This document shows, in pieces, positions 2 through 15,244 of a DNA stretch of 15,244 bases (the first letter of the stretch is position 1; the number at the start of each line of letters is the position of its first letter). Under the pieces are notes generated by a model, which saw nothing but the letters and a program-made list of their open reading frames with translations, ran no database searches and was not told the DNA's origin. The stretch is from NCBI GenBank assembly GCA_903895005.1, contig CAITSH010000205.1:1-15244 (forward strand). The letters are read 5' to 3'. The DNA comes from an uncultured Pseudomonadota bacterium. Lineage in GTDB: Bacteria; Pseudomonadota; Gammaproteobacteria; Burkholderiales; SG8-39. The position numbers and the translations under genes are program-made.

Positions 2-541
2 ATTGCCCGCGCACAGCCGGGCAAGCTGAGCTACGGGTCGGCCGGTGTCGGCACGGCGAGTCATCTGGCAGGCGAATTGTTCAAGTCCATGGCACGCGTC
101 GACGTGACGCATATTCCATACAAGGGCAACGTGCCGGCCATCACCGACCTGCTGGCCGGGCAGACCCAAATGGTGTTCGCCACCATGCCCACCGTGTTGC
201 CGCACGTAAAGGCAGGCAAGTTGAAGGGCTTGGCGGTGCTCGGTCTCAATCGCTCGGCGGCGGCACCCGAGGTGCCGACCCTGTCCGAGTCCGGGCTAAA
301 CGGCTTTGAGGTGAATAACTGGATCGGGATTTTCGGCCCCGCGGGCATGCCGCCGGCCATCACCACGCGACTCAACACCGCGGTGCTCGATGTAATGCGC
401 CTGCCCGAAGTGCGCCAGCGCATGCTCACCGAGGGGGCGCGCTTCACCGCCACGACGCCGGAGCAATTCACCGCGTTTGTCGCCGCCGAAACGGCAAAGT
501 GGGGCAAGCTGATTCGCGACGTCGGTATTCGCGCCGATTAA
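2..541 (+). CDS. Bug/TctC-family periplasmic solute-binding protein, 3' part
   Basis: Partial gene, open from the left edge of the window; the visible 179 residues are roughly the C-terminal half of a family usually near 320-330 residues. Bug (TctC-like) proteins bind small carboxylates or related solutes in the periplasm, sometimes delivering them to a TctAB-type transporter. The identification rests on the ordered family motifs: a G-S-A-G-x-G-T-x-S-H-L-A-G-E stretch near the left edge, then IPYKG followed by A-I-T-D-L-L-A-G-Q, then a TMP-x-x-LPHV-x-AGKL-x-x-LAV block, EVPTLSESG, and a final G-P-A-G-M-P-P segment before the C-terminal helices. The stop is TAA at 539-541. The signal peptide and first lobe lie outside the window. 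No membrane subunit follows; the next gene is an unrelated methyltransferase 165 bases downstream. The ligand cannot be read from the sequence. Confidence 0.93.
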   Translation: MARAQPGKLSYGSAGVGTASHLAGELFKSMARVDVTHIPYKGNVPAITDLLAGQTQMVFATMPTVLPHVKAGKLKGLAVLGLNRSAAAPEVPTLSESGLNGFEVNNWIGIFGPAGMPPAITTRLNTAVLDVMRLPEVRQRMLTEGARFTATTPEQFTAFVAAETAKWGKLIRDVGIRAD

Positions 542-1734: not shown

Positions 1735-4719
1735 ATGCGGCCAGGATGGAACCACCGCCCTCCCATCATGCTTCCCGACGCCGGACGCCAATACGAGCAG
1801 GACCTCCTGCGTGACATCGAGCGCGTACGCAGCGTTCTGTCCGAGTGCCGCCGTGCATTGGTGCGGGCCGACGACGAAACCCTTTTCCTGCAGGACATGT
1901 GCCGTATCGCGGTTGAGCTTGCCGGCTACAAACTCGCCTGGGTCGGGCTTGTGCGTCATGACGAGGCGTGCAGCATCGAGGCGGTTGCCTCGGCATCGGA
2001 TCAGGGCGGTTTGTTCACCGGTGTTCGCGTGTCCTGGGGCGATAACGAGTTTGGCAGCGGTCCTGCCGGCCACGCCGTGCGCAGCGGCCGCTCGCAGGTG
2101 GTGCAAAATCTGCACGGCGCACACGGGTTTGGCAGCTGGCGTCCGCGGGCCCTGGGGCCGCAACACCAGGCTGCGGCGGTGCTGCCCCTGAGAATCGGCG
2201 GCGAGACCGACCAGGTGATCGGCGTCATGTGCATCATCGCCGGGCAGTCCGATGCGTTCGGCAAATTGGAACTCGACCTACTTGAGGACGTCGCACGCGA
2301 TCTCGGATTCGGCATCGGGACGCTGCGCGGGCGCAGCGCGCAACGTCTCGCCGAGGCCGAACTGCGTGCCAGCGAGCAAAGGTTCAGGGCGACTTTCGAC
2401 CGGGTGTATGTCGGCGTTGCGCATGTCGATCCCGACGGGCGCTACCTTCTGGTCAACCGTCGCCTGGAGGAAATGCTCGGCTACGATCCGGGGGAAATGA
2501 CAGGCATGTCGATACGCGACATGTCCCATCCGGATGATCGTCATGCAACCGACGAGATCCGGGCGCGCATGCGTTCGGGCGCCATCGACGGCTTCCAGTT
2601 CAAGAAGCGTTACTTCAAAAAGGACCGCTCGATCATATGGGTGGCGCTGACCGTTTCGGTCATGCGTGCTTCAGACGGCCGACCGCTTTACGACATTTCC
2701 GTAATCGAGGACATTACCGGGCGTGAGCGTACCGAAGCGCTGCGACAACTCGAACACACCATCACCCGCCAGCTTGCCGAGGCGGAAAGCGCTTCCGAAG
2801 CGCTGCAGGCGGCGATGCGCGCCATCTGCGAATCTGAGGCTTGGGACTGCGCGCGCTACTTCGTTCCCGGCAACCAACCGGATGTGCTGCATTTTTCCGA
2901 CGGCTGGGCCGGCAATGATCCTGCCATCGCAGCCTTCTTGCGCGACTCGGAAGGTTTCCGATATGACACGAGCGTGGGCATACTGGGTGTTGCCTGGCGC
3001 GAGGGCAGGCCCGCCTGGTCGGCGGATATCAGCACCGATCCGCGCGTGGCGCAGGGTGCGGTGGCCTTGCGCCACGGCATGCGCGGTTTGTTCGTCTTTC
3101 CGGTGCGCGCGGACGGCCGAGTCGTTGGTGTGCTGGTGTTCAGCAGCCGCGCGGTACGCGAGCCCGAACAGCGCTCGGTCGACGCCATGGAGACGATAGG
3201 TACGCAGATCGGACAGTTTTTGCAGCGCAAGCGCGCCGAGGAGGCGCAACGGCGGTTTCGTGTCGCCATGGATACTTCGGCCGACATTATTACGCTGGTC
3301 GACCCGGAAACCATGCGTTATATCGACGTCAACGCCACCGCCTGCGAGCCGCAGGGCTATACGCGCGAGCAGATGCTGGCCATGGGGCCGCAGGATGTCA
3401 GTGACCTGCCGAAAGAGGAATTTGCGCGCCAGTTTGCCCTGACGATTGCAAGCGGTGAATCCACGAGGCTGCTTGCCACCCACCGGCGGGCCGATGGCGT
3501 GAAATTCCCCATTGAAGTCGTGCGCCGTGCGGTGCGCTCCGAGGGGCGCTGGATCATCGTATCGGTGCTGCGCGATATATCGGAGCGCGTCGAGGCCGAG
3601 GCAAGCTTGCGCCGAAGCGAGGAACGGTTCCGCAAGCTTGCGGCCCTGTCATCGGATAGTTTCTGGGAGACCGACGCCCAGCACCGCTTTATCCATGTCG
3701 TCAGTGGCACGCGGTTTGGCGTCGTCTACGAGGCGAAGGAGCACCTGGGCAAGGCGCGCTGGGATATGCCATCGGTTTCACCCGGGGTCGCCGGATGGGA
3801 ATGGCTGCGCGAAACCATGGACGCGCACGAATCTTTCCATGAGTTTGAATTCGCCCGTGCCGACACGGATGGTCGCATTCATTACCGCATGATCAGCGGC
3901 CAGCCCGTGTTCGCCGAGCACGGTGTCTTTGTCGGTTACATTGGCGTTGCCCGGGACATCACGTCGCGCAAGCGCGACGAGGCGAAGATGCTGGAGCTCA
4001 ATACGCAGCTCGAAGCGCGTGTCGCGCAACGCACCGCAGACCTCGAGCGCGCCAACCGCGAACTGGAGGCCTTCAGTTATTCGGTTGCGCACGACCTGCG
4101 CGCGCCCCTGCGCGCCATCAACTCCTTCAGCGCCATCGTGCTCAAGGAAAATGCCGGCAAGCTCGACGCGGCGTCGGCCGATTACCTGCGGCGTGTGCAG
4201 GACGGCGGCCTGCGCATGGGCGAGCTGGTGGACGACCTGCTCGACCTCGCGCGCATCTCCCGCCAGGAACCACACCGTATCGACCTTAACCTGGCGACCA
4301 TCGCCGGCAAGGTGCTTGCGACGCTGACCGATGCGAATCCCGGACGCAAGGTGGAGGTGGCGATGAGCGGCAGCATGCCCGCCAACTGCGATCCGGCCCT
4401 GATGGAAATCGTCCTTTCCAATCTCGTCGGTAACGCCTGGAAGTTCACCGGCAAGGCTGCGGCCGCGCGCATTGAGATCGGCGCCGAGGATCGCGAGGGC
4501 CGCCGGGTGTACTTCGTCCGCGACAATGGCGCCGGTTTTGAAATGCAGTACAGCCAGAAGCTGTTCACGCCCTTCCAGCGTCTTCACGGCCGCGACGAAT
4601 TTGAGGGTACCGGCATCGGCCTGTCCCTCGTAAAGCGCATCATCGACAAGCACCATGGCGATGTCTGGGCCGAGGGCGAGAAGGGCCGCGGCGCGTGCTT
4701 TTATTTCACGCTGGGTTGA
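1735..4719 (+). CDS. Soluble multi-sensor histidine kinase (GAF-PAS-GAF-PAS-PAS-HisKA-HATPase)
   Basis: 994 residues with no signal peptide or membrane helix, so a cytoplasmic sensor kinase. Domain order, with rough residues: GAF 30-195, PAS 211-331, GAF 345-500, PAS 505-622, PAS 626-748, a short coiled linker, dimerisation/phosphoacceptor domain 775-845 and ATPase domain 885-994. The phosphoacceptor is His786 in S-V-A-H-D-L-R-A-P-L, the form common in phytochrome-like kinases. The ATPase shows the N box with Asn896 and Asn900, the G1 box D930-N-G-A-G and the G2 box E957-G-T-G-I-G, so it should be active. There is no receiver domain and no response regulator gene in the window. ATG 1735 is the first usable start, since an in-frame stop lies at 1681 and no GTG or TTG intervenes; ATG 1768 is an alternative. 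Neither has a strong ribosome binding site. The first GAF lacks an obvious chromophore Cys, and the ligands of all five sensor domains are unknown. Confidence 0.93.
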   Translation: MRPGWNHRPPIMLPDAGRQYEQDLLRDIERVRSVLSECRRALVRADDETLFLQDMCRIAVELAGYKLAWVGLVRHDEACSIEAVASASDQGGLFTGVRVSWGDNEFGSGPAGHAVRSGRSQVVQNLHGAHGFGSWRPRALGPQHQAAAVLPLRIGGETDQVIGVMCIIAGQSDAFGKLELDLLEDVARDLGFGIGTLRGRSAQRLAEAELRASEQRFRATFDRVYVGVAHVDPDGRYLLVNRRLEEMLGYDPGEMTGMSIRDMSHPDDRHATDEIRARMRSGAIDGFQFKKRYFKKDRSIIWVALTVSVMRASDGRPLYDISVIEDITGRERTEALRQLEHTITRQLAEAESASEALQAAMRAICESEAWDCARYFVPGNQPDVLHFSDGWAGNDPAIAAFLRDSEGFRYDTSVGILGVAWREGRPAWSADISTDPRVAQGAVALRHGMRGLFVFPVRADGRVVGVLVFSSRAVREPEQRSVDAMETIGTQIGQFLQRKRAEEAQRRFRVAMDTSADIITLVDPETMRYIDVNATACEPQGYTREQMLAMGPQDVSDLPKEEFARQFALTIASGESTRLLATHRRADGVKFPIEVVRRAVRSEGRWIIVSVLRDISERVEAEASLRRSEERFRKLAALSSDSFWETDAQHRFIHVVSGTRFGVVYEAKEHLGKARWDMPSVSPGVAGWEWLRETMDAHESFHEFEFARADTDGRIHYRMISGQPVFAEHGVFVGYIGVARDITSRKRDEAKMLELNTQLEARVAQRTADLERANRELEAFSYSVAHDLRAPLRAINSFSAIVLKENAGKLDAASADYLRRVQDGGLRMGELVDDLLDLARISRQEPHRIDLNLATIAGKVLATLTDANPGRKVEVAMSGSMPANCDPALMEIVLSNLVGNAWKFTGKAAAARIEIGAEDREGRRVYFVRDNGAGFEMQYSQKLFTPFQRLHGRDEFEGTGIGLSLVKRIIDKHHGDVWAEGEKGRGACFYFTLG

Positions 4720-7829: not shown

Positions 7830-7836
7830 CAGTCGA

Positions 7837-8832
7837 ATGAAACCTTTTTCACGCTGGTCACGGTCGTGCGCCCTCCTGTTTGTTGCGCTGCTGGGTGCGC
7901 TTTCAATGGGCGTGCCCGCGCACGCGCAGGACTTTCCGGTCAAGCCGGTGCGGCTAATCGTTGCGCAGGCCGCCGGATCGAGCGCCGACATCCTGATGCG
8001 CCAGATGGCGCAAAGGCTGAGTGAGTCCTGGGGCCAGCAGGTCATTGTCGACAACCGGCCCGGCGCAAACGGCATCATCGGCATGGATGCGCTCGCCAAG
8101 GCGCGTCCCGACGGTTACACCATCGCCATGGCCGCACCCAGCCCGATGACCGTCAACCAGTTCATCTACAAGGACCTGCCTTACAAACCGCTGGAAGACT
8201 TTGCGCCGGTGACGCAAACCACCGGCATCACCTTCGTGCTGGTTGCCAACCCCAACCTGCCCGTCAAGACCGTGGGCGATTTGGTGGCGCTGGCGAAGCA
8301 AAAGCCCGACGGACTCAATTACAGCTCGCCCGGGGTGGGCAACCTCAGCCACCTTGGCGCCGAACTGCTGTCGAGCGAGGCCGGTATCAGGATGCGCCAC
8401 ATACCCAACAAGGGTGACACGCCGGCGCTGCTCGATGTCATCGCCGGCAACACAGACTTCACCATCATCACGCTGCCCGCGGCCCTGCCGCATATCCGCT
8501 CGGGCAAGCTGCGATTGGTGGCCGTATGCGGCCGCGCCAGAAGCCCGGTTTTTCCGGAAGTGCCGACCATCGCCGAGAGCGGGTACGGCGGCGTGGTGAT
8601 CGAAGGCTGGTCCGGGATCATCGCTCCGGCGGGCACGCCGCCTGATGTGGTCGCCAGGTTGCAGCGCGACATCAGCAGGCTCTTTCTCGCGCCCGAGTTC
8701 AAGGAGGCCGTGGGCAAACAGGGGGCGGATATCGCGGGCACATCGCCCGAAGCCTTCGCAACGTTCATCCGCGCCGAGGCGGATAAATGGTCCCGCGTCA
8801 TCAAAACATCGGGTATCAAACTCAATCAGTAA
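7837..8832 (+). CDS. Bug/TctC-family periplasmic solute-binding protein
   Basis: 331 residues, complete. Residues 1-30 form a Sec signal peptide: Lys2/Arg6/Arg9, a hydrophobic core from 11 to 26 and Ala-His-Ala at 28-30 before Gln31. The mature protein begins with the family's F-P-x-K-P-V-R-L-I-V strand, then A-G-S-S-A-D-I, V-D-N-R-P-G-A-N-G, A-R-P-D-G-Y-T, Y-S-S-P-G-V-G-N-L-S-H-L-G-A-E, I-P-N-K-G-D-T-P-A-L, L-P-H-I-R-S-G-K-L, E-V-P-T-I-A-E-S-G and A-P-A-G-T-P-P. Bug proteins capture small organic acids or related solutes in a two-lobe cleft. As the last gene of the aldolase-hydratase operon it probably binds the substrate of that pathway or a precursor. No TctA/TctB membrane subunits are nearby, so it may use a distant transporter or act as a sensor. 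The ligand cannot be told from sequence alone. Confidence 0.95.
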   Translation: MKPFSRWSRSCALLFVALLGALSMGVPAHAQDFPVKPVRLIVAQAAGSSADILMRQMAQRLSESWGQQVIVDNRPGANGIIGMDALAKARPDGYTIAMAAPSPMTVNQFIYKDLPYKPLEDFAPVTQTTGITFVLVANPNLPVKTVGDLVALAKQKPDGLNYSSPGVGNLSHLGAELLSSEAGIRMRHIPNKGDTPALLDVIAGNTDFTIITLPAALPHIRSGKLRLVAVCGRARSPVFPEVPTIAESGYGGVVIEGWSGIIAPAGTPPDVVARLQRDISRLFLAPEFKEAVGKQGADIAGTSPEAFATFIRAEADKWSRVIKTSGIKLNQ

Positions 8833-9714: not shown

Positions 9715-9717
9715 CTG
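9704..9717 (+). promoter_or_regulatory. Ribosome binding site followed by a CTG start codon
   Basis: AAAGGA (9702-9707, core AGGA at 9704-9707) is followed after 7 bases by CTG at 9715-9717 and then the codons Lys-Ile-Cys-Ile-Phe-Gly-Ala-Gly-Ala. That is exactly where ketopantoate reductases normally begin with Met-Lys-Ile. No ATG, GTG or TTG lies in frame between TTG 9625 and this point. Confidence 0.65.
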
Positions 9718-10680
9718 AAGATCTGCATATTCGGCGCCGGCGCGGTTGGCGGGCATTTCGCGGCGCGACTTGCGGCCGCGGGTAACGACGTATCGGTGGT
9801 CGCACGCGGTCCTAATCTTGCAGCCATTCGAGCGCGTGGCCTGGTGCTGCACACCGGCGACAAACGCATCGAAGGGCGCGTGCGCGCCAGCGAGGATCCC
9901 GCGGACCTGGGGCCCCAAGACGTGATTCTGGCCACGCTCAAGGCGACCGGCCTGGGCTCTCTCGCGGATGGCGTCAAACCGCTTCTTGGCCCGGATACCG
10001 CCGTGGTGTTCGCGCAAAACGGTGTGCCCTGGTGGTATGCGCAAGGCCTGTCACCGTCGCGGCCGCGTCCCCCCGACCTGTCGCGCCTGGACCCGGGTGG
10101 GGTTCTTGCGCGCAGCATTGCCCCGGAGCGTGTGGTCGGTGGCGTGATTTTTTCCGCCAACACGGTGGTGGAGCCCGGCGTCATCAGCAACGCCACGCCC
10201 CAGAACAACCGGTTGAGCCTGGGCGAGACCGACGACCGGCCGAGCACGCGCCTTGACGCGCTGCGCGCGGCGCTCATCGCCGCCGGGATCGATTCCCCGC
10301 CGGTGCCCGACATTCGCGCCGTCGTCTGGCACAAGCTGTTGTTTAACCTGATGTCCGGGGTCTCCGCGCTCACCGAGCAGCCGGGCAAGATCATGATGGC
10401 CGATGCGGAGGTAAGCGCCGTTGTTCACGCGTTGATCCGCGAAGGCATCGCCATCGGTGCCGCGCATGGCATCGCGCTTGAACCGGTGATGCCCAACAAC
10501 ACCATGCACAAACCATCGATCCTGCAGGACTACGAAATGGAACGACAGATGGAGGTCGAGGCCCTGTTGCAGGTTCCGCTCGCTTTTGCCCGCTCTGCCA
10601 AGGTGGCGGCGCCCATCCTGGAGGTGGTGACTGCCCTGGTGTCAATGCGTGCGACGGCAAAAGGCCTGTACCAGAGATAG
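9715..10680 (+). CDS. Ketopantoate reductase family protein (2-dehydropantoate 2-reductase-like)
   Basis: 321 residues counted from the CTG at 9715. The family reduces 2-oxoacids such as ketopantoate with NADPH. The N-terminal Rossmann motif G7-A-G-A-V-G-G binds the cofactor. Further family sites are Asn102 in A-Q-N-G-V-P, catalytic Lys207 in V-W-H-K-L-L-F-N-L and the C-terminal K-P-S-I-L-Q-D-Y-E-M-E-R-Q-M-E-V-E block. The N-G-V-P-W-W-Y form followed by a Pro-rich loop marks a paralogue group that need not make pantoate, so the name panE is not assigned. The other possible start, TTG 9625, would add 30 residues with no family match and has no clear ribosome binding site. The gene has its own terminator 14 bases after the stop and appears monocistronic. 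Possible partners are the neighbouring cupin or the aldolase pathway, where it could reduce a 2-oxoacid product; this is speculative. Confidence 0.88.
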   Translation: MKICIFGAGAVGGHFAARLAAAGNDVSVVARGPNLAAIRARGLVLHTGDKRIEGRVRASEDPADLGPQDVILATLKATGLGSLADGVKPLLGPDTAVVFAQNGVPWWYAQGLSPSRPRPPDLSRLDPGGVLARSIAPERVVGGVIFSANTVVEPGVISNATPQNNRLSLGETDDRPSTRLDALRAALIAAGIDSPPVPDIRAVVWHKLLFNLMSGVSALTEQPGKIMMADAEVSAVVHALIREGIAIGAAHGIALEPVMPNNTMHKPSILQDYEMERQMEVEALLQVPLAFARSAKVAAPILEVVTALVSMRATAKGLYQR

Positions 10681-10734: not shown

Positions 10735-10868
10735 CGATATGCTGGGGGCATTCCCGGCTATGGTTTTATGTTCGTCGCGACGCATCCGGGGGTATCCGAA
10801 CGGCTCGCGAGTAGAATGCAGGTCATGAAACCAATGCGGTCCATGGCGATGAGCGGAGGCGCTGCAGC

Positions 10869-13800
10869 ATGAGCAAACTGCTCGATAAACTCAAGCAAGC
10901 GGAACGCGATCACAATGCCAAGACGACACCGGAAGGCCTGGTCGGGCAGACCGATGCGGCGGCGTCTGATCTGGCGCGTACCCGTGCGGTCAGGACGCGT
11001 GCGGCGGAACAGGCTGTGGCGGACTTGCGCGCACGCATTGACACCGATCGGGGCGCCGAGTCGGCTGTGCAGGCGCGCGCCGCCGAGGACAAGCGCGCCC
11101 TGGATCTGGCGCGTGAACGCCAGGCCGCCGAGGCCGAATTGCGCCGTATTGCACATTCGCGCGTCGAAGCCGAAACCAAGGCCGCCCGTGTTTCTGCAGA
11201 ACGGGAGCGGGCCGAGGCGCAGGCGCTGACCGAGTCGCGTGCGCGCGAGGAGGCGGAGCGCAAATCGGCCGCGCTCGCCGAGAGCCGGCGGCAGCAGGAA
11301 CTTCGCACCGAGCAGCACGCGCGTGAGCGTGCCGAGGCTGAAAGCCAGGCCGGTGCGCTGATGGCCGAGCGTCTCGCCGCCGAGGAGCAGGTGCGGCGCC
11401 TCGCGCGCGAACGCGTGGTCTCCGAGCAGCGCGCCCTTGAGGCGGCGCGCGAACGAAAAGTCGCCGAGGACAAACTCGCACGCGAAGCCGAGGCACGCGT
11501 GGCCTCGGAGGCGGCAGCGCTGCGCATGGCCGAGGAACGTGAAAGCGCCGAACGCGCCGCTCTTGCCGACGCGCAACTGCGCGCCGAAGCGGAAAGCAAG
11601 GCGCTCAACCTTGCCGAGCAGATGCGCCAGCATGAAGCCGAGGCTGCGCGCCTTGCCGAGGCGCGCAGCGAGGCAGAGGAACTGGCCCGTGTCGCGGCGG
11701 TCGAGCGCGCAGCCGCCGAGCGGCGCGCACAGGATGGGCTGCGCGAGCGCGAGGCCATGGAATCTCTGGCCGCGCGCCGCGCAAAAGCGCGCGCAGATGC
11801 CGATTCCGAGGCGCTGCGTGTCGGGCAGGAACGGGCCCAAGCCGATGCACGTGCCACTGTCGAGGCGCAGGCACGCGCCGAGGCCGACGAACAGGCCGCA
11901 GCCCTGGCCGAGCAGCGCCGCGTCGTCGAGGAGGCGGCCGAACGGCAGGCAATGGAACGCGCCAATGCCGAGGGGCAAGCCCTCGCCGCAGCCGATCGCC
12001 GGCGCCTGGAAGCCGAGGCACTCGAGCGTGCCTCGCGCGCGCGCAGCGAGGCCGACAAAGATGCCGAGCAACGCGCCCTTGAACGCGCGCAGCTGGATGC
12101 CGAAATGGCACGCGTCCTCTCCACCAGCCTGAAGGCGGAAACCGAGGCCGCCGCACGCCTGCAGGCACGCCTGCAGGCCGAGACCGTTGCGCAGACGGCG
12201 GCCGAAGAGTGCGCCGCGGCCGAGTTCGCGATGACACAAACAGCGGGTCAGGCTGCGGAGGCGGACGCACAATTGCAGTTCGTCGCCGAGGCGCGTCGCA
12301 TCGCTGACGCCGAGGCGGTGGAGCAGACGCAGCAACGCGTCCTCGCCGATATGCGCGCCCAGAAGGCGGCGAAGGAGCGGCAGGAGGCCGAGTCACGCGC
12401 CGCCGAAGCCGCAGCAGAACGGGTTGCGCAGGAAACCGCGGCGGCGCAAAGCGCCGCCCAGCGCAGCGCGGCGGAACAGGATGCCCAGGGCGCCGCCAAC
12501 CGGCGCATCGAGGCCGAACGCGCCCTTGCGCGCGCCGCGGAAGAGCGCATCCGCAACGAAGCGCAGCTGCGCGAGCAGGCCGAACACCGCGCACGTGCCG
12601 AACAGGAAGCGGTAAAGCAGTCGCAGGCCCTGGCGGAGGTGGAGGCACGCGCCGCCGCCGAAGCGGCTGAACGTGCGAACACCGATGAACGCGCCGCCGC
12701 CGAAACCCTCGCACGCGCCGCGGCCGAGGCTGACGCGGCGTCGCAGGCGGCTGCGCGGGTTGCCACGGAACAGGCCGCGCGGGAGGCCGCGGCCCGACGC
12801 ATCGAGGCGGATCAGGCCCTGATCGAGGCGGCGCGAAACAAGGAGGCGGGTGCCCTGGCACTGGCCCTGGAAGAGTCTGCGCGTGCGGCGACCGATGCCG
12901 AGGCTGCGCGTGTCGCCGGAGAACGCGCCGAGGCTGAAGCGCGTGCCCTTGCACTCGAACAGTCGCGCACAGAGGCGGCAGCCGCGGCGATTGCCGCGCT
13001 CGCCGAACGTCAAAGAAGGGAAACTGATGCGACCGCGCTTGCCAATGAAAAAATAGTCGCTGAAAAAAATGCGGTGGCGCTTGCAGCGGAACTTGCTCTC
13101 GCGGAGCAGGCCCTGGGTTTGGCGGCGGCCGGTCGTGCCGCCGCCGATGCGACGCTGCTGGCCGAGGCCGAGGCGCGCATCGCCGCAGAGGAAGATGCGG
13201 CCCGCCTTGCGGCGCAGCGTACCGATGCCGAGGCACACGCGCTCGAATTGGAACAGGCGCGCGCGAAGGCGGCGGCCAGGGCGCTCGCTGCGGCAACGTC
13301 GCGGGAACAAAAAGACGTTGGTGCAACGCGTATTGCCAACGAACGCATCGCCGCGGAAAAACAGGCGGGCGCACTGGCGGCGGAACAAGCCGCAGCAGAG
13401 GGGGCGCTCGCCGCCGCAGCTGCCGAGCGTGCAAAAGCCGATGCAGCACTGGTCCAGGAGGCGCAGGCGCGCATCAGCGCCGACGAGCTCGCGGCAGAGG
13501 CGGCACGCAACAGGGAACGCGAGGAGGCCGCTGCGTTCAAACTGGCTTCAGCACGCGCAAAAGTCGAGCAACGCGCCATCGACGCCGCGGCCAGGCGCAG
13601 CGTCGCGGAGCGGCGTGCGCAGGCGGCATTGGAGCAGCGCATCGCCTCTGAGAAAAACGCAGACGCGCTTGCACTTCAGGCGCAACAGGCCGGCGCCGGG
13701 GCTGCAGAGGCCGGCGCGGCGCGTAGCGCGCTTGAAATGCAAATGAAGGGACCGACGACGAGGCCGCGACGAAAATGGCTGGGCGAGGCTGCCGTGGCGG

Positions 13801-13967
13801 TGGCTTGCGTCATCGGCGTCGCGCTTTACTTCGCCGCCTTCCCCGGACCGAAGGCACCCCCTGCGCGTGCGCCGGGCCCCGAACTTCCGCTGCAGTTGCG
13901 ACTCGATGAGGGTGTCGAAAAAATTCCCTCCGGCCTGGCGAAGATCGAGAGAAAAAAACGCAAGTAG
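10869..13967 (+). CDS. Giant Ala/Glu/Arg-rich helical rod protein with C-terminal membrane anchor
   Basis: 1032 residues; no family recognised. Residues 1-16 (M-S-K-L-L-D-K-L-K-Q-A-E-R) resemble the short N-terminal motif of GspB-like and other proteobacterial proteins (comparison from memory). A linker to about 38 precedes a continuous helical region. From 81 to 948 it consists of 62 units of exactly 14 residues, with weaker units at 39-80 and 949-962. Unit consensus is A-x-x-R-x-x-A-E-x-x-A-x-x-x; 14 residues equal two heptads, so a coiled coil or a long salt-bridged single helix fits. R-P-R-R-K-W (965-970) is followed by a membrane segment at about 974-991, then a Pro-rich segment (992-1007) and a basic C-terminal end. 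With no signal peptide and positive charges before the helix, the rod is probably cytoplasmic and tethered to the inner membrane. GGAGG lies 9 bases before ATG 10869. A lone TAGAAT (10812-10817) is a weak promoter candidate. Alternatives: cell-envelope scaffold, TolA-like spacer or positioning protein. Confidence 0.88.
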   Translation: MSKLLDKLKQAERDHNAKTTPEGLVGQTDAAASDLARTRAVRTRAAEQAVADLRARIDTDRGAESAVQARAAEDKRALDLARERQAAEAELRRIAHSRVEAETKAARVSAERERAEAQALTESRAREEAERKSAALAESRRQQELRTEQHARERAEAESQAGALMAERLAAEEQVRRLARERVVSEQRALEAARERKVAEDKLAREAEARVASEAAALRMAEERESAERAALADAQLRAEAESKALNLAEQMRQHEAEAARLAEARSEAEELARVAAVERAAAERRAQDGLREREAMESLAARRAKARADADSEALRVGQERAQADARATVEAQARAEADEQAAALAEQRRVVEEAAERQAMERANAEGQALAAADRRRLEAEALERASRARSEADKDAEQRALERAQLDAEMARVLSTSLKAETEAAARLQARLQAETVAQTAAEECAAAEFAMTQTAGQAAEADAQLQFVAEARRIADAEAVEQTQQRVLADMRAQKAAKERQEAESRAAEAAAERVAQETAAAQSAAQRSAAEQDAQGAANRRIEAERALARAAEERIRNEAQLREQAEHRARAEQEAVKQSQALAEVEARAAAEAAERANTDERAAAETLARAAAEADAASQAAARVATEQAAREAAARRIEADQALIEAARNKEAGALALALEESARAATDAEAARVAGERAEAEARALALEQSRTEAAAAAIAALAERQRRETDATALANEKIVAEKNAVALAAELALAEQALGLAAAGRAAADATLLAEAEARIAAEEDAARLAAQRTDAEAHALELEQARAKAAARALAAATSREQKDVGATRIANERIAAEKQAGALAAEQAAAEGALAAAAAERAKADAALVQEAQARISADELAAEAARNREREEAAAFKLASARAKVEQRAIDAAARRSVAERRAQAALEQRIASEKNADALALQAQQAGAGAAEAGAARSALEMQMKGPTTRPRRKWLGEAAVAVACVIGVALYFAAFPGPKAPPARAPGPELPLQLRLDEGVEKIPSGLAKIERKKRK
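11109..13712 (+). repeat. 62 tandem coding repeats of 42 bases (14 residues), no indels
   Basis: Divided into 42-base units starting at 11109, the frame stays in register to 13712. By hand count Arg is at unit position 4 in 52 units (Lys in two more) and Asp/Glu at position 8 in 57. Positions 1, 7 and 11 are mostly Ala. The DNA of the units is well diverged although GCCGAG and GCGCG-GAACG words recur, so the array is old and held by selection on the protein rather than recently duplicated. The Arg-to-acidic spacing of four residues would give one intrahelical salt bridge per unit. Confidence 0.9.
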
Positions 13968-14033: not shown

Positions 14034-15011
14034 CTATTCCGGCGTCAAGCCCGACTGCTTCACCGCCGCGCCCCACTTCACCGACTCGCTGCGAATGAAC
14101 GTGGAAAATTCTTCGGGCGTGCTCCCGACCGGTTCCGCGCCGGCCTTGGACAGCGCTTCACGCACGTCGCTCATCGCCAGTACTTTCACCACTTCATCGT
14201 GCAGGCGGCGGATGACCTCGGGCGGCGTGCCGGTCGGTGCGACAAGGCCGGTCCAGCCGGTGACCACCACCGAGGGGAAGCCCAGTTCGCTCATGGTCGC
14301 AACATCGGGCACGGCGGACGAACGTTTCGGCTGGCATACGGCCAGCGCGCGCAGCTTGCCGGCCCTGACATGCGGCAGCAACGCGGGCATGGTGCCCACG
14401 ATCATGTCGATCTGACCGCCCAGCAGGTCGGTGATCGCCGGGGCCTCGCCCTTGTAGGGGACGTGCAGGAATTTCACGCCGGTGGCACCGGCGAGCATTT
14501 CGGCGGCGAGGTGGCTCTGGTTGCCGGCACCGGCCGAGCCGTAGCGGACAAGCTCCGGTTTTGCGCGCGCTGCGCTGATCAATTCCTGCGCGCTCTTGTA
14601 CGGTGAATTGGCCGGGACGGTCATCACGAACACGATCGAGGTGGTCTGTGTCACCGCGGTGAAATCGCGCAGCGCGTCATAGGGCACCTTCTTGTAGACG
14701 TGCTGGTTGATGGTGAGCGTACTCGGGGAAGTCATCAGGAAGGTATAGCCGTCAGGTGTCGCGCGCGCGGCGGCTTCGCCAGCGATCATGCCGTTGGCGC
14801 CGGCGCGGTTGTCGATGATGAAGGTCTGGCCAAGGGCTTCGCCGAGTTTCTGCCCGATAAGCCTCGCGGCGATGTCGATGCTGCCGCCCGCGGACTGCGA
14901 GACGATGAAACGCACCGGGCGCGAGGGCCAGGCCTGTGCCGCAGCGGACGCGGGGAGCAGCAGTTGTAATAGCAGAGCCGCCGCAATCGTAATCAGGGTC
15001 GTGAGTCTCAT
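14034..15011 (-). CDS. Bug/TctC-family periplasmic solute-binding protein
   Basis: 325 residues from the ATG complementary to 15009-15011; GGAG lies 5 bases before it. The frame is open further upstream but only this start gives a signal peptide: Arg2, hydrophobic 6-19, then Ala-Ser-Ala-Ala-Ala-Gln-Ala at 21-27 with cleavage near 25-27. The mature protein shows W-P-S-R-P-V-R-F-I-V, G-G-S-I-D-I, I-D-N-R-A-G-A-N-G-M-I, A-T-P-D-G-Y-T, Y-G-S-A-G-A-G-N-Q-S-H-L-A-A-E, V-P-Y-K-G-E-A-P-A-I-T-D-L-L-G-G-Q, T-M-P-A-L-L-P-H-V-R-A-G-K-L and A-P-T-G-T-P-P. It follows a PrpD-like gene by 22 bases on the same strand, so the two are very probably co-transcribed and the ligand may be that enzyme's substrate. 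It differs clearly from the Bug protein at 7837-8832, so it is not a recent duplicate. No transporter membrane genes are seen. Confidence 0.95.
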   Translation of the reverse strand: MRLTTLITIAAALLLQLLLPASAAAQAWPSRPVRFIVSQSAGGSIDIAARLIGQKLGEALGQTFIIDNRAGANGMIAGEAAARATPDGYTFLMTSPSTLTINQHVYKKVPYDALRDFTAVTQTTSIVFVMTVPANSPYKSAQELISAARAKPELVRYGSAGAGNQSHLAAEMLAGATGVKFLHVPYKGEAPAITDLLGGQIDMIVGTMPALLPHVRAGKLRALAVCQPKRSSAVPDVATMSELGFPSVVVTGWTGLVAPTGTPPEVIRRLHDEVVKVLAMSDVREALSKAGAEPVGSTPEEFSTFIRSESVKWGAAVKQSGLTPE

Positions 15012-15033
15012 GGATTCTCCGCTTGAAATGAAA

Positions 15034-15244
15034 TCAGGGATTGAAATCGACCAGCGTGCGCATGTCATCGCACCCGTCAATATGGAGCAGCGCATCGCGC
15101 AGGGTCCCGGCCCTGTCTTGGCCCCACAGCGGCACGGCAAGATCGTTGTATTTGCGTTCAAGGTCGGCGACCGCATGGGGGCGGGTTGGCTCGCCGCTGG
15201 TGATGATACAGCGCCCTTCGTAACGCGTGCCGTCCTTCATGCAG
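15034..15244 (-). CDS. MmgE/PrpD-family protein, C-terminal end (partial)
   Basis: Only the last 69 or so codons are in the window; the gene continues beyond the right edge, and its TGA stop is at the complement of 15034-15036. The visible order, D-G-T-x-Y-E, then an S-G-E-P-x-x-P stretch, then D-L-E-R-K-Y-x-D-L-A and a closing A-x-x-L-R-D-A-L-L-x-I-D segment, matches the C-terminal end of MmgE/PrpD proteins. This family includes 2-methylcitrate dehydratase, cis-aconitate decarboxylase and related enzymes that act on branched organic acids. The catalytic residues lie outside the window, so the reaction cannot be told. It is followed 22 bases later by a Bug receptor, a pairing that fits an organic-acid uptake and catabolism unit. 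A call from a fragment this short remains somewhat uncertain. Confidence 0.75.
   Translation of the reverse strand, partial: CMKDGTRYEGRCIITSGEPTRPHAVADLERKYNDLAVPLWGQDRAGTLRDALLHIDGCDDMRTLVDFNP

Follow-up and report, generated by a model that had tools for sequence, protein, structure and literature searches.

A 14-residue-repeat rod protein with a predicted C-terminal membrane helix and the HD-GYP genes that accompany its relatives

The rod gene and its 14-residue array

The window, i.e. the whole 15,244-nucleotide stretch analysed here, codes for a 1032-residue rod protein whose gene directly follows the gene of the ketopantoate reductase PanE. The locus is organised as follows.

9715-10680 (+): gene of the ketopantoate reductase PanE, immediately 5' of the rod gene, from the neighbour annotation
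10855-10859 (+): GGAGG, possible ribosome-binding site read from the sequence 9 nt 5' of the ATG
10869-13967 (+): rod gene, an ORF of 1032 codons with a syntenic orthologue at L002:11881-15078 (dN/dS 0.04-0.28)
10869-10907 (+): N-terminal motif MSKLLDKLKQAER, with variants in homologues (alignment of nine, and further members); proposed docking element
10983-11273 (+): conserved rod head, residues 39-135 (residues 39-107 compared with L002: 91% identical, dN/dS 0.042)
11109-13712 (+): array of 62 14-residue units (residues 81-948), from unit count, autocorrelation and phase statistics
12909-13496 (+): neighbouring blocks of 98 residues, or seven units each, at residues 681-778 and 779-876 (58% protein and 62% DNA identity)
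13788-13844 (+): predicted membrane helix, residues 974-992, with a basic flank on its N side, conserved in homologues
13845-13964 (+): 40-residue C-terminal tail with PLQLRLD (residues 1007-1013)

The promoter scan yielded 0 sites (0.1 expected) and the terminator scan 4, which is no excess over the 5.3 expected. Three TctC (tripartite tricarboxylate receptor) proteins are also encoded within the 15 kb, at 77-541 (+), 7834-8829 (+) and 14034-15176 (-).

The original prediction, drawn from the letters alone, divided residues 81-948 into 62 gapless in-register units. This division is borne out, no indel being found, and the recount gives the same figures as the earlier hand count, with Arg at unit position 4 in 52 of the 62 units and an acidic residue at position 8 in 57 (42 Glu and 15 Asp). 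Ala occupies position 1 in 46 units, position 7 in 42 and position 11 in 45. The lag-14 peak looked for in the identity autocorrelation is present (0.311; 1000 residue shuffles reached no more than 0.228 at lags 2-59), and values of 0.28-0.39 recur at every multiple of 14 up to 112. The highest value, 0.387, lies above that of lag 14 and falls at lag 98, or seven units, a feature absent from the original prediction. The pair 681-778/779-876 is the best 98-residue block at all lags tested, and this region contains 98 residues without counterpart in L002. When 14-mers are counted with a free start, 61 of 61 above-threshold units fall in a single phase between residues 53 and 934, so the array begins before residue 81; the same count on a shuffle of the window protein gives 8 above-threshold units. 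The DNA of the units has diverged as had been claimed, with a mean nucleotide identity between units of 0.43, and the 52 Arg codons at position 4 are of five kinds (CGC 32, CGT 10, CGG 8, CGA 1, AGG 1). The array is therefore not a recent DNA repeat.

Contig L002 belongs to the metagenome-assembled genome G001, the closest relative of the window among the genomes compared, and was located with a neighbouring aconitase-family protein as bait. The public record of this metagenome bin (CAMAWC010000063.1) is labelled Bordetella parapertussis, a label that is doubted. Its rod protein has 1066 residues and its gene lies among the same surrounding genes as in the window. Three blocks of the rod without gaps have dN/dS ratios of 0.15, 0.19 and 0.26 between the two; the ratio is 0.27 for residues 958-997 and 0.04 for residues 39-107. 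Over residues 39-383 the differences number 50, 53 and 161 at sense codon positions 1, 2 and 3, with a dN/dS of 0.15. The selection that had been proposed for the frame thus stands (dN/dS 0.04-0.28 against a syntenic orthologue) and, judged from these substitution patterns, the rod frame is a gene under purifying selection. The majority of invariant columns in alignment A3 lie within the rod head, residues 39-135. Both rods keep one phase over about 940 residues and, as a result, their length differences inside the rod amount to whole units. Across 900 residues the repeat holds its register and an Arg/Glu face of the helix, and the other unit positions drift.

As predicted, the rod is likely to be helical. 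Residues 39-957 contain no proline, and Arg is followed by Glu at i,i+4 in 77 pairs against a mean of 26 and a maximum of 39 in 300 shuffles. AlphaFold places helices at residues 32-428, 462-602, 610-741 and 762-942, with breaks between them and a mean pLDDT of only 61.5 (two sequences). The length of 130 nm calculated earlier may be taken as an upper bound that assumes an unbroken helix. The most informative unit positions, 4, 8, 11 and 1, have heptad (3-4-3-4) spacing; in the order 1, 4, 8, 11 they carry Ala, Arg, Glu and Ala. Positions 2, 3, 6, 9, 10 and 13 are polar on average and fall within 80-200 degrees of the helical wheel, on one side. Hydropathy power is 7.6 at a period of 3.5 residues compared to 55 at 2.0 and 42 at 4.67; this low value and the Arg and Glu in the conserved stripe may speak against a plain coiled coil. 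The C-terminal membrane segment also stood up to analysis, residues 974-992 being the strongest hydrophobic segment of the protein (mean hydropathy 2.24); a second hydrophobic stretch near residue 735 reaches 1.5. The 15 residues preceding the predicted helix have a net charge of +4 and those following it +1, from which an N-in/C-out topology is inferred.

The absence of a recognised family is confirmed in the libraries searched. The window protein has no match in Pfam or NCBIfam at E <= 1 nor among PDB sequences at E <= 1e-5, and the other family members tried likewise gave no Pfam, NCBIfam or PDB-sequence match. A protein database queried with the C-terminal and N-terminal regions of the rod protein returned nothing, and the whole L002 orthologue found nothing at E <= 1e-10 among the best 7998 word-sharing candidates. 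In phmmer, at the same database size, the window protein scores E 1e-223 with L002 and 3e-72 with L019, so rod proteins are either absent from that protein collection or lost to its word and length filters; these E-values are too strong for scoring bias to be the sole reason for the empty search. When genome contigs were scanned by DNA pattern for the rod, no relative emerged, though L002 is in that collection, and plasmid records had no match to the rod. No account of such a rod was recognised in the open-access literature, seen in part and with most subscription papers outside it.

Homologues with common ends and rods of variable length

A 135-residue N-terminal query has matches in eight of 101 genomes related to G001, G001 included. 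The N-terminal alignment finds matches in 14 of the 98 genomes of G001's family at E <= 1e-8, 12 of them strong; among the candidates scored per genome, it retrieves G001 alone both in the order (399 genomes) and in the class (369 genomes, E <= 1e-6). With the C-terminal alignment, seven of the 399 genomes of the order match at E <= 1e-4, and 32 of the 98 family genomes have raw, candidate matches at E <= 0.01. One of the seven, the match in G184, is a J-domain-like protein that lacks the repeat when read by eye and looks false.

Members share their two ends. An N-terminal motif near MS[KR]LxDKLKxAER is found in variants across members, the window protein among those that carry it, and is absent from the fusions described below and from the paralogue L024. 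Of the members whose C terminus is intact, all but the tandem copy L050b have the C-terminal hydrophobic segment. The tail motif, close to PLxLRL[DE], is found exactly or in close variants in 15 aligned members, and the window protein has both membrane helix and tail. The family, which has no match in the libraries searched, carries zero to about 80 units between the same two ends.

A matrix built from the window units reveals one dominant phase (z 12.5-41) in 14 of the 15 homologue sequences scored, L052 being omitted because its rod piece is shorter than 60 residues. The z value of L024 lies in this range with a negative mean score, and L050 (z 3.7) drifts in phase along the protein. In 367 units from ten homologues, chosen for a dominant phase and with their spans trimmed, position 4 is Arg or Lys in 89% and position 8 is Glu or Asp in 93%. 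Of the 23 sequences that have at least two units, nine, namely the window, L002, L047, L050b, L096 and partial L018, L021, L049 and L069, have unit spacings that are all multiples of 14, and in L017, L019, L020, L022 and L023 nearly all are; the other nine are less regular, chance hits being included among their off-phase matches. The strict register originally claimed holds for the window, for its orthologue (about 940 residues) and for long stretches of several homologues, but it is loose in L050, L068, L080, L081 and L024.

The paralogue L024:7038-10481, in genome G001, codes for 1148 residues with a 14-residue repeat, a membrane helix, a PLQLQLD tail and a different N terminus. It adjoins fliR (Pfam) and, by eye, further flagellar export genes. 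Directly after the L050 rod lies the tandem copy L050b (L050:11297-12034), a protein of 246 residues and some 12 units that lacks a clear membrane helix.

Rod length, taken as repeat span divided by 14, ranges widely. L067 has 142 residues and no array, a single 14-mer in its tail being a chance match. Short rods have 12 units in L050b, 23 in L068, 30 in L096 and about 40 in L020 and L023. These are followed by L017, L019 and L047 (44-45), L048 (50), and L050 and L081 (61). The longest are the window (63 by span), L002 (67), L024 (70) and L080, whose 85 units by span become about 80 without the part beyond its membrane helix. The molecular ruler suggested by the original prediction is not borne out by homologues whose rods vary between none and about 80 units; with such variation, selection is unlikely to act on one fixed distance. 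Given these lengths and the enzyme genes described below, a tether of variable length is more probable than a fixed ruler.

Association with HD-GYP genes

A gene for a REC-HD-GYP protein, of c-di-GMP phosphodiesterase type, lies directly upstream of the rod gene in 10 of 16 homologous loci, and nine of these ten pairs overlap by 4 nt at their stop and start codons. All ten upstream genes encode the motifs HDxGK and HHExxDGxGYP; eight were assigned by Pfam, those of L020 and L068 by motif and similarity. L002, L017, L018, L049, L050 and L051 have no HD-GYP gene directly upstream, and upstream of the rod in L017, L018 and L050 is a gene that reads, by eye, as that of a ferredoxin oxidoreductase. 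A REC-GGDEF-EAL gene is encoded further upstream in L019, L020, L021, L047 and L048. On the downstream side, L019, L020, L023, L047 and L048 have a gene for the potassium transporter Kup.

In two genomes the enzyme and the rod are one protein. An intact ORF of 1332 codons in G190 joins REC and HD_5 (Pfam) to the repeat, the membrane helix and the tail, and one of 968 codons in G401 joins REC-HD-GYP to rod and membrane helix and ends in a tail that matches the motif poorly. The HD-GYP-rod frame of G039 stops after 804 codons and the membrane helix and tail are in another frame, an interruption that may reflect decay or an assembly error. The fusions name a partner for the rod family. They begin with REC-HD-GYP where separate rods have the N-terminal motif, a coincidence of position which suggests, from sequence comparison, that the motif is a docking element for the enzyme. 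The rod head after the fused enzyme resembles the window weakly (22 residues, E 7e-4). G061 has a rodless member directly after HD-GYP, and in G046 an HD-GYP/Kup pair has no rod between its genes; the contig carries the rod at a distance of about 6 kb. L083:416-1749 (genome G050) features an HD-GYP frame overlapped by a frame that ends in the rod-family tail and has no rod; with a short PanE piece nearby, it looks like a cluster remnant.

The window departs from this arrangement. Its rod gene, like that of L002, comes directly after PanE, with REC-HD-GYP neither directly upstream nor fused, and none of the ten neighbour proteins scanned in the window has an HD domain. In L020, L023 and L047 (where the PanE match is partial) an HD-GYP gene is placed between the PanE homologue and the rod. 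Nine draft genomes of uncertain completeness were surveyed at E <= 1e-60 for relatives of the HD-GYP protein of L019. Copies 58-66% identical occur in G471, G046, G039 and G401, a 48% identical one in G472 and only a 40% identical one in G001; G058, G025 and G375 had no match at this threshold. From the PanE adjacency and this survey, the window rod seems to have lost its HD-GYP neighbour while remaining under selection. The absent gene is the main gap when the tether reading is applied to the window protein, and the HD-GYP link itself is beyond what the window sequence alone could show.

The PAS/GAF histidine kinase encoded upstream in the window (994 residues, 1735-4719, +) was considered as a displaced kinase of the HD-GYP clusters. 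It is distant from these and probably not an orthologue, its longest alignment with the kinase of L019 showing 31% identity compared to 51-59% among the cluster kinases of five other loci.

Possible roles and relation to known systems

The explanation we favour, to which we give an even chance, is that of a helical tether or scaffold anchored by its tail, which ancestrally served a c-di-GMP phosphodiesterase whose gene has gone from the window locus. From the N terminus on, the protein would comprise a short motif, a long helical rod in the cytoplasm, possibly continuous and oligomeric, one membrane helix that anchors it in the inner membrane and a short, presumably periplasmic tail. Each unit of 14 residues would make four turns, or about 2.1 nm, and reach would evolve largely by whole units. 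The ancestral cargo, a putatively active REC-HD-GYP phosphodiesterase, would sit at the N-terminal end, attached through docking in the case of separate, overlapping genes and covalently in the fusions. In the window lineage the rod would have been kept presumably for another partner or for an HD-GYP enzyme encoded elsewhere. A more specific version is put forward tentatively: a modular, length-adjustable tether whose 14-residue steps keep the phosphodiesterase off or along the inner membrane, the overlapping genes, the fusions, the missing rods and the rod that outlives its enzyme gene in the window being states of one system. The selected property may be reach, avidity or lateral assembly. 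The tether is supported by the repeat and the selection on it, the C-terminal helix and tail motif, the upstream overlap, the fusions, which start with the enzyme in place of the N-terminal motif, and the rodless member after HD-GYP. It is weakened by the six of 16 loci and the window without HD-GYP directly upstream, by the surveyed genomes with no close HD-GYP copy, by the weak match of the rod head after the fused enzyme, by the weak 3.5-residue hydropathy signal and by the low AlphaFold confidence with breaks.

The same rod could build a cytoskeleton, self-assembling through lateral contacts of its Arg/Glu/Ala face into filaments attached to the membrane, with a role in shaping, stiffening or marking the cell that is independent of c-di-GMP enzymes. 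Selection persists in the window and L002 where HD-GYP is absent from the locus, the paralogue lies beside fliR, and positions 4, 8, 11 and 1 are in 3-4-3-4 spacing with polar positions on one side. Such filaments nevertheless appear rather unlikely to us in view of the REC-HD-GYP overlap and fusion in other genomes, the rodless member at the same gene position and the weakness of the 3.5-residue hydropathy periodicity. If instead the N-terminal motif, membrane helix and tail were the working parts and the rod a tolerated, nearly neutral expansion, middle and late rod should not have dN/dS values of 0.14-0.28, unit residues 4 and 11 should not be kept in 88% of aligned orthologous positions, nor the register over 900 residues. 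We find this improbable, even with a rodless 142-residue member that has the same ends directly after HD-GYP, lengths of 0 to about 80 units and a first part of the protein that evolves more slowly than the remainder.

A ruler that sets one fixed cellular distance would account for the exact register of 62 units. It is very unlikely given homologues with none to about 80 units, and the part of a review available (PMC5082667) sets spacers, which keep their length, against other coiled coils. Hardly any credence is left for an unexpressed frame whose repeat arises as a side effect of GC-rich DNA or of a gene on the opposite strand: long antisense ORFs (525, 404 and 614 residues) do overlap the rod gene, but the codon-position bias of 50/53/161 against L002, with its dN/dS of 0.15, rejects them as source of the repeat, and the conserved ends and the gene overlap in homologues also speak for a real protein. 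If the tether reading is true, natural rod lengths could be swapped to learn whether it matters how far from the membrane a second-messenger enzyme sits.

Several known architectures resemble the rod in part. Crescentin, a bacterial intermediate-filament-like coiled coil, is also a long repetitive helical rod; the window protein differs by ending in a membrane helix and short tail and has no PDB-sequence match at E <= 1e-5. TolA has an N-terminal membrane helix, an Ala-rich helical middle part and a TolA domain. The Ala-rich helical part adjoining one membrane helix is common to both proteins, but the order is reversed in the rod protein, whose membrane helix is C-terminal with the rod on its N side, and there is no TolA match; assignment to TolA was consequently rejected. 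The HubP/FimV family is defined by its LysM domain, and the rod protein has neither FimV nor LysM match (Pfam, NCBIfam, E <= 1). According to the part of PMC9061725 available, the polar landmark HubP/FimV recruits the phosphodiesterase PdeB in Shewanella and binds through its C-terminal FimV domain. If the tether reading is right, both are membrane-linked scaffolds that place a c-di-GMP phosphodiesterase, which makes HubP the closest functional likeness, qualified by the failed FimV-domain test. The rod has its membrane helix at the C terminus, and the fused enzyme is N-terminal compared to the C-terminal binding domain that this excerpt gives for HubP.

Single alpha-helix (SAH) domains are described, in the excerpt of PMC5347031, as rich in Arg, Glu and Lys. 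The rod has in common with them a long helix and many Arg/Glu pairs at i,i+4 (77), but it is 35% Ala (300 of 868 residues) and only 35% charged with one conserved face, and it was rejected as a SAH domain on this composition, which lacks their dense Glu/Lys/Arg content. Coiled-coil spacers, tethers and scaffolds (PMC5082667, seen in part) are likewise long repetitive helices with a conserved 3-4-3-4 stripe; that of the rod contains Arg and Glu, with a weak 3.5-residue signal and a variable length.
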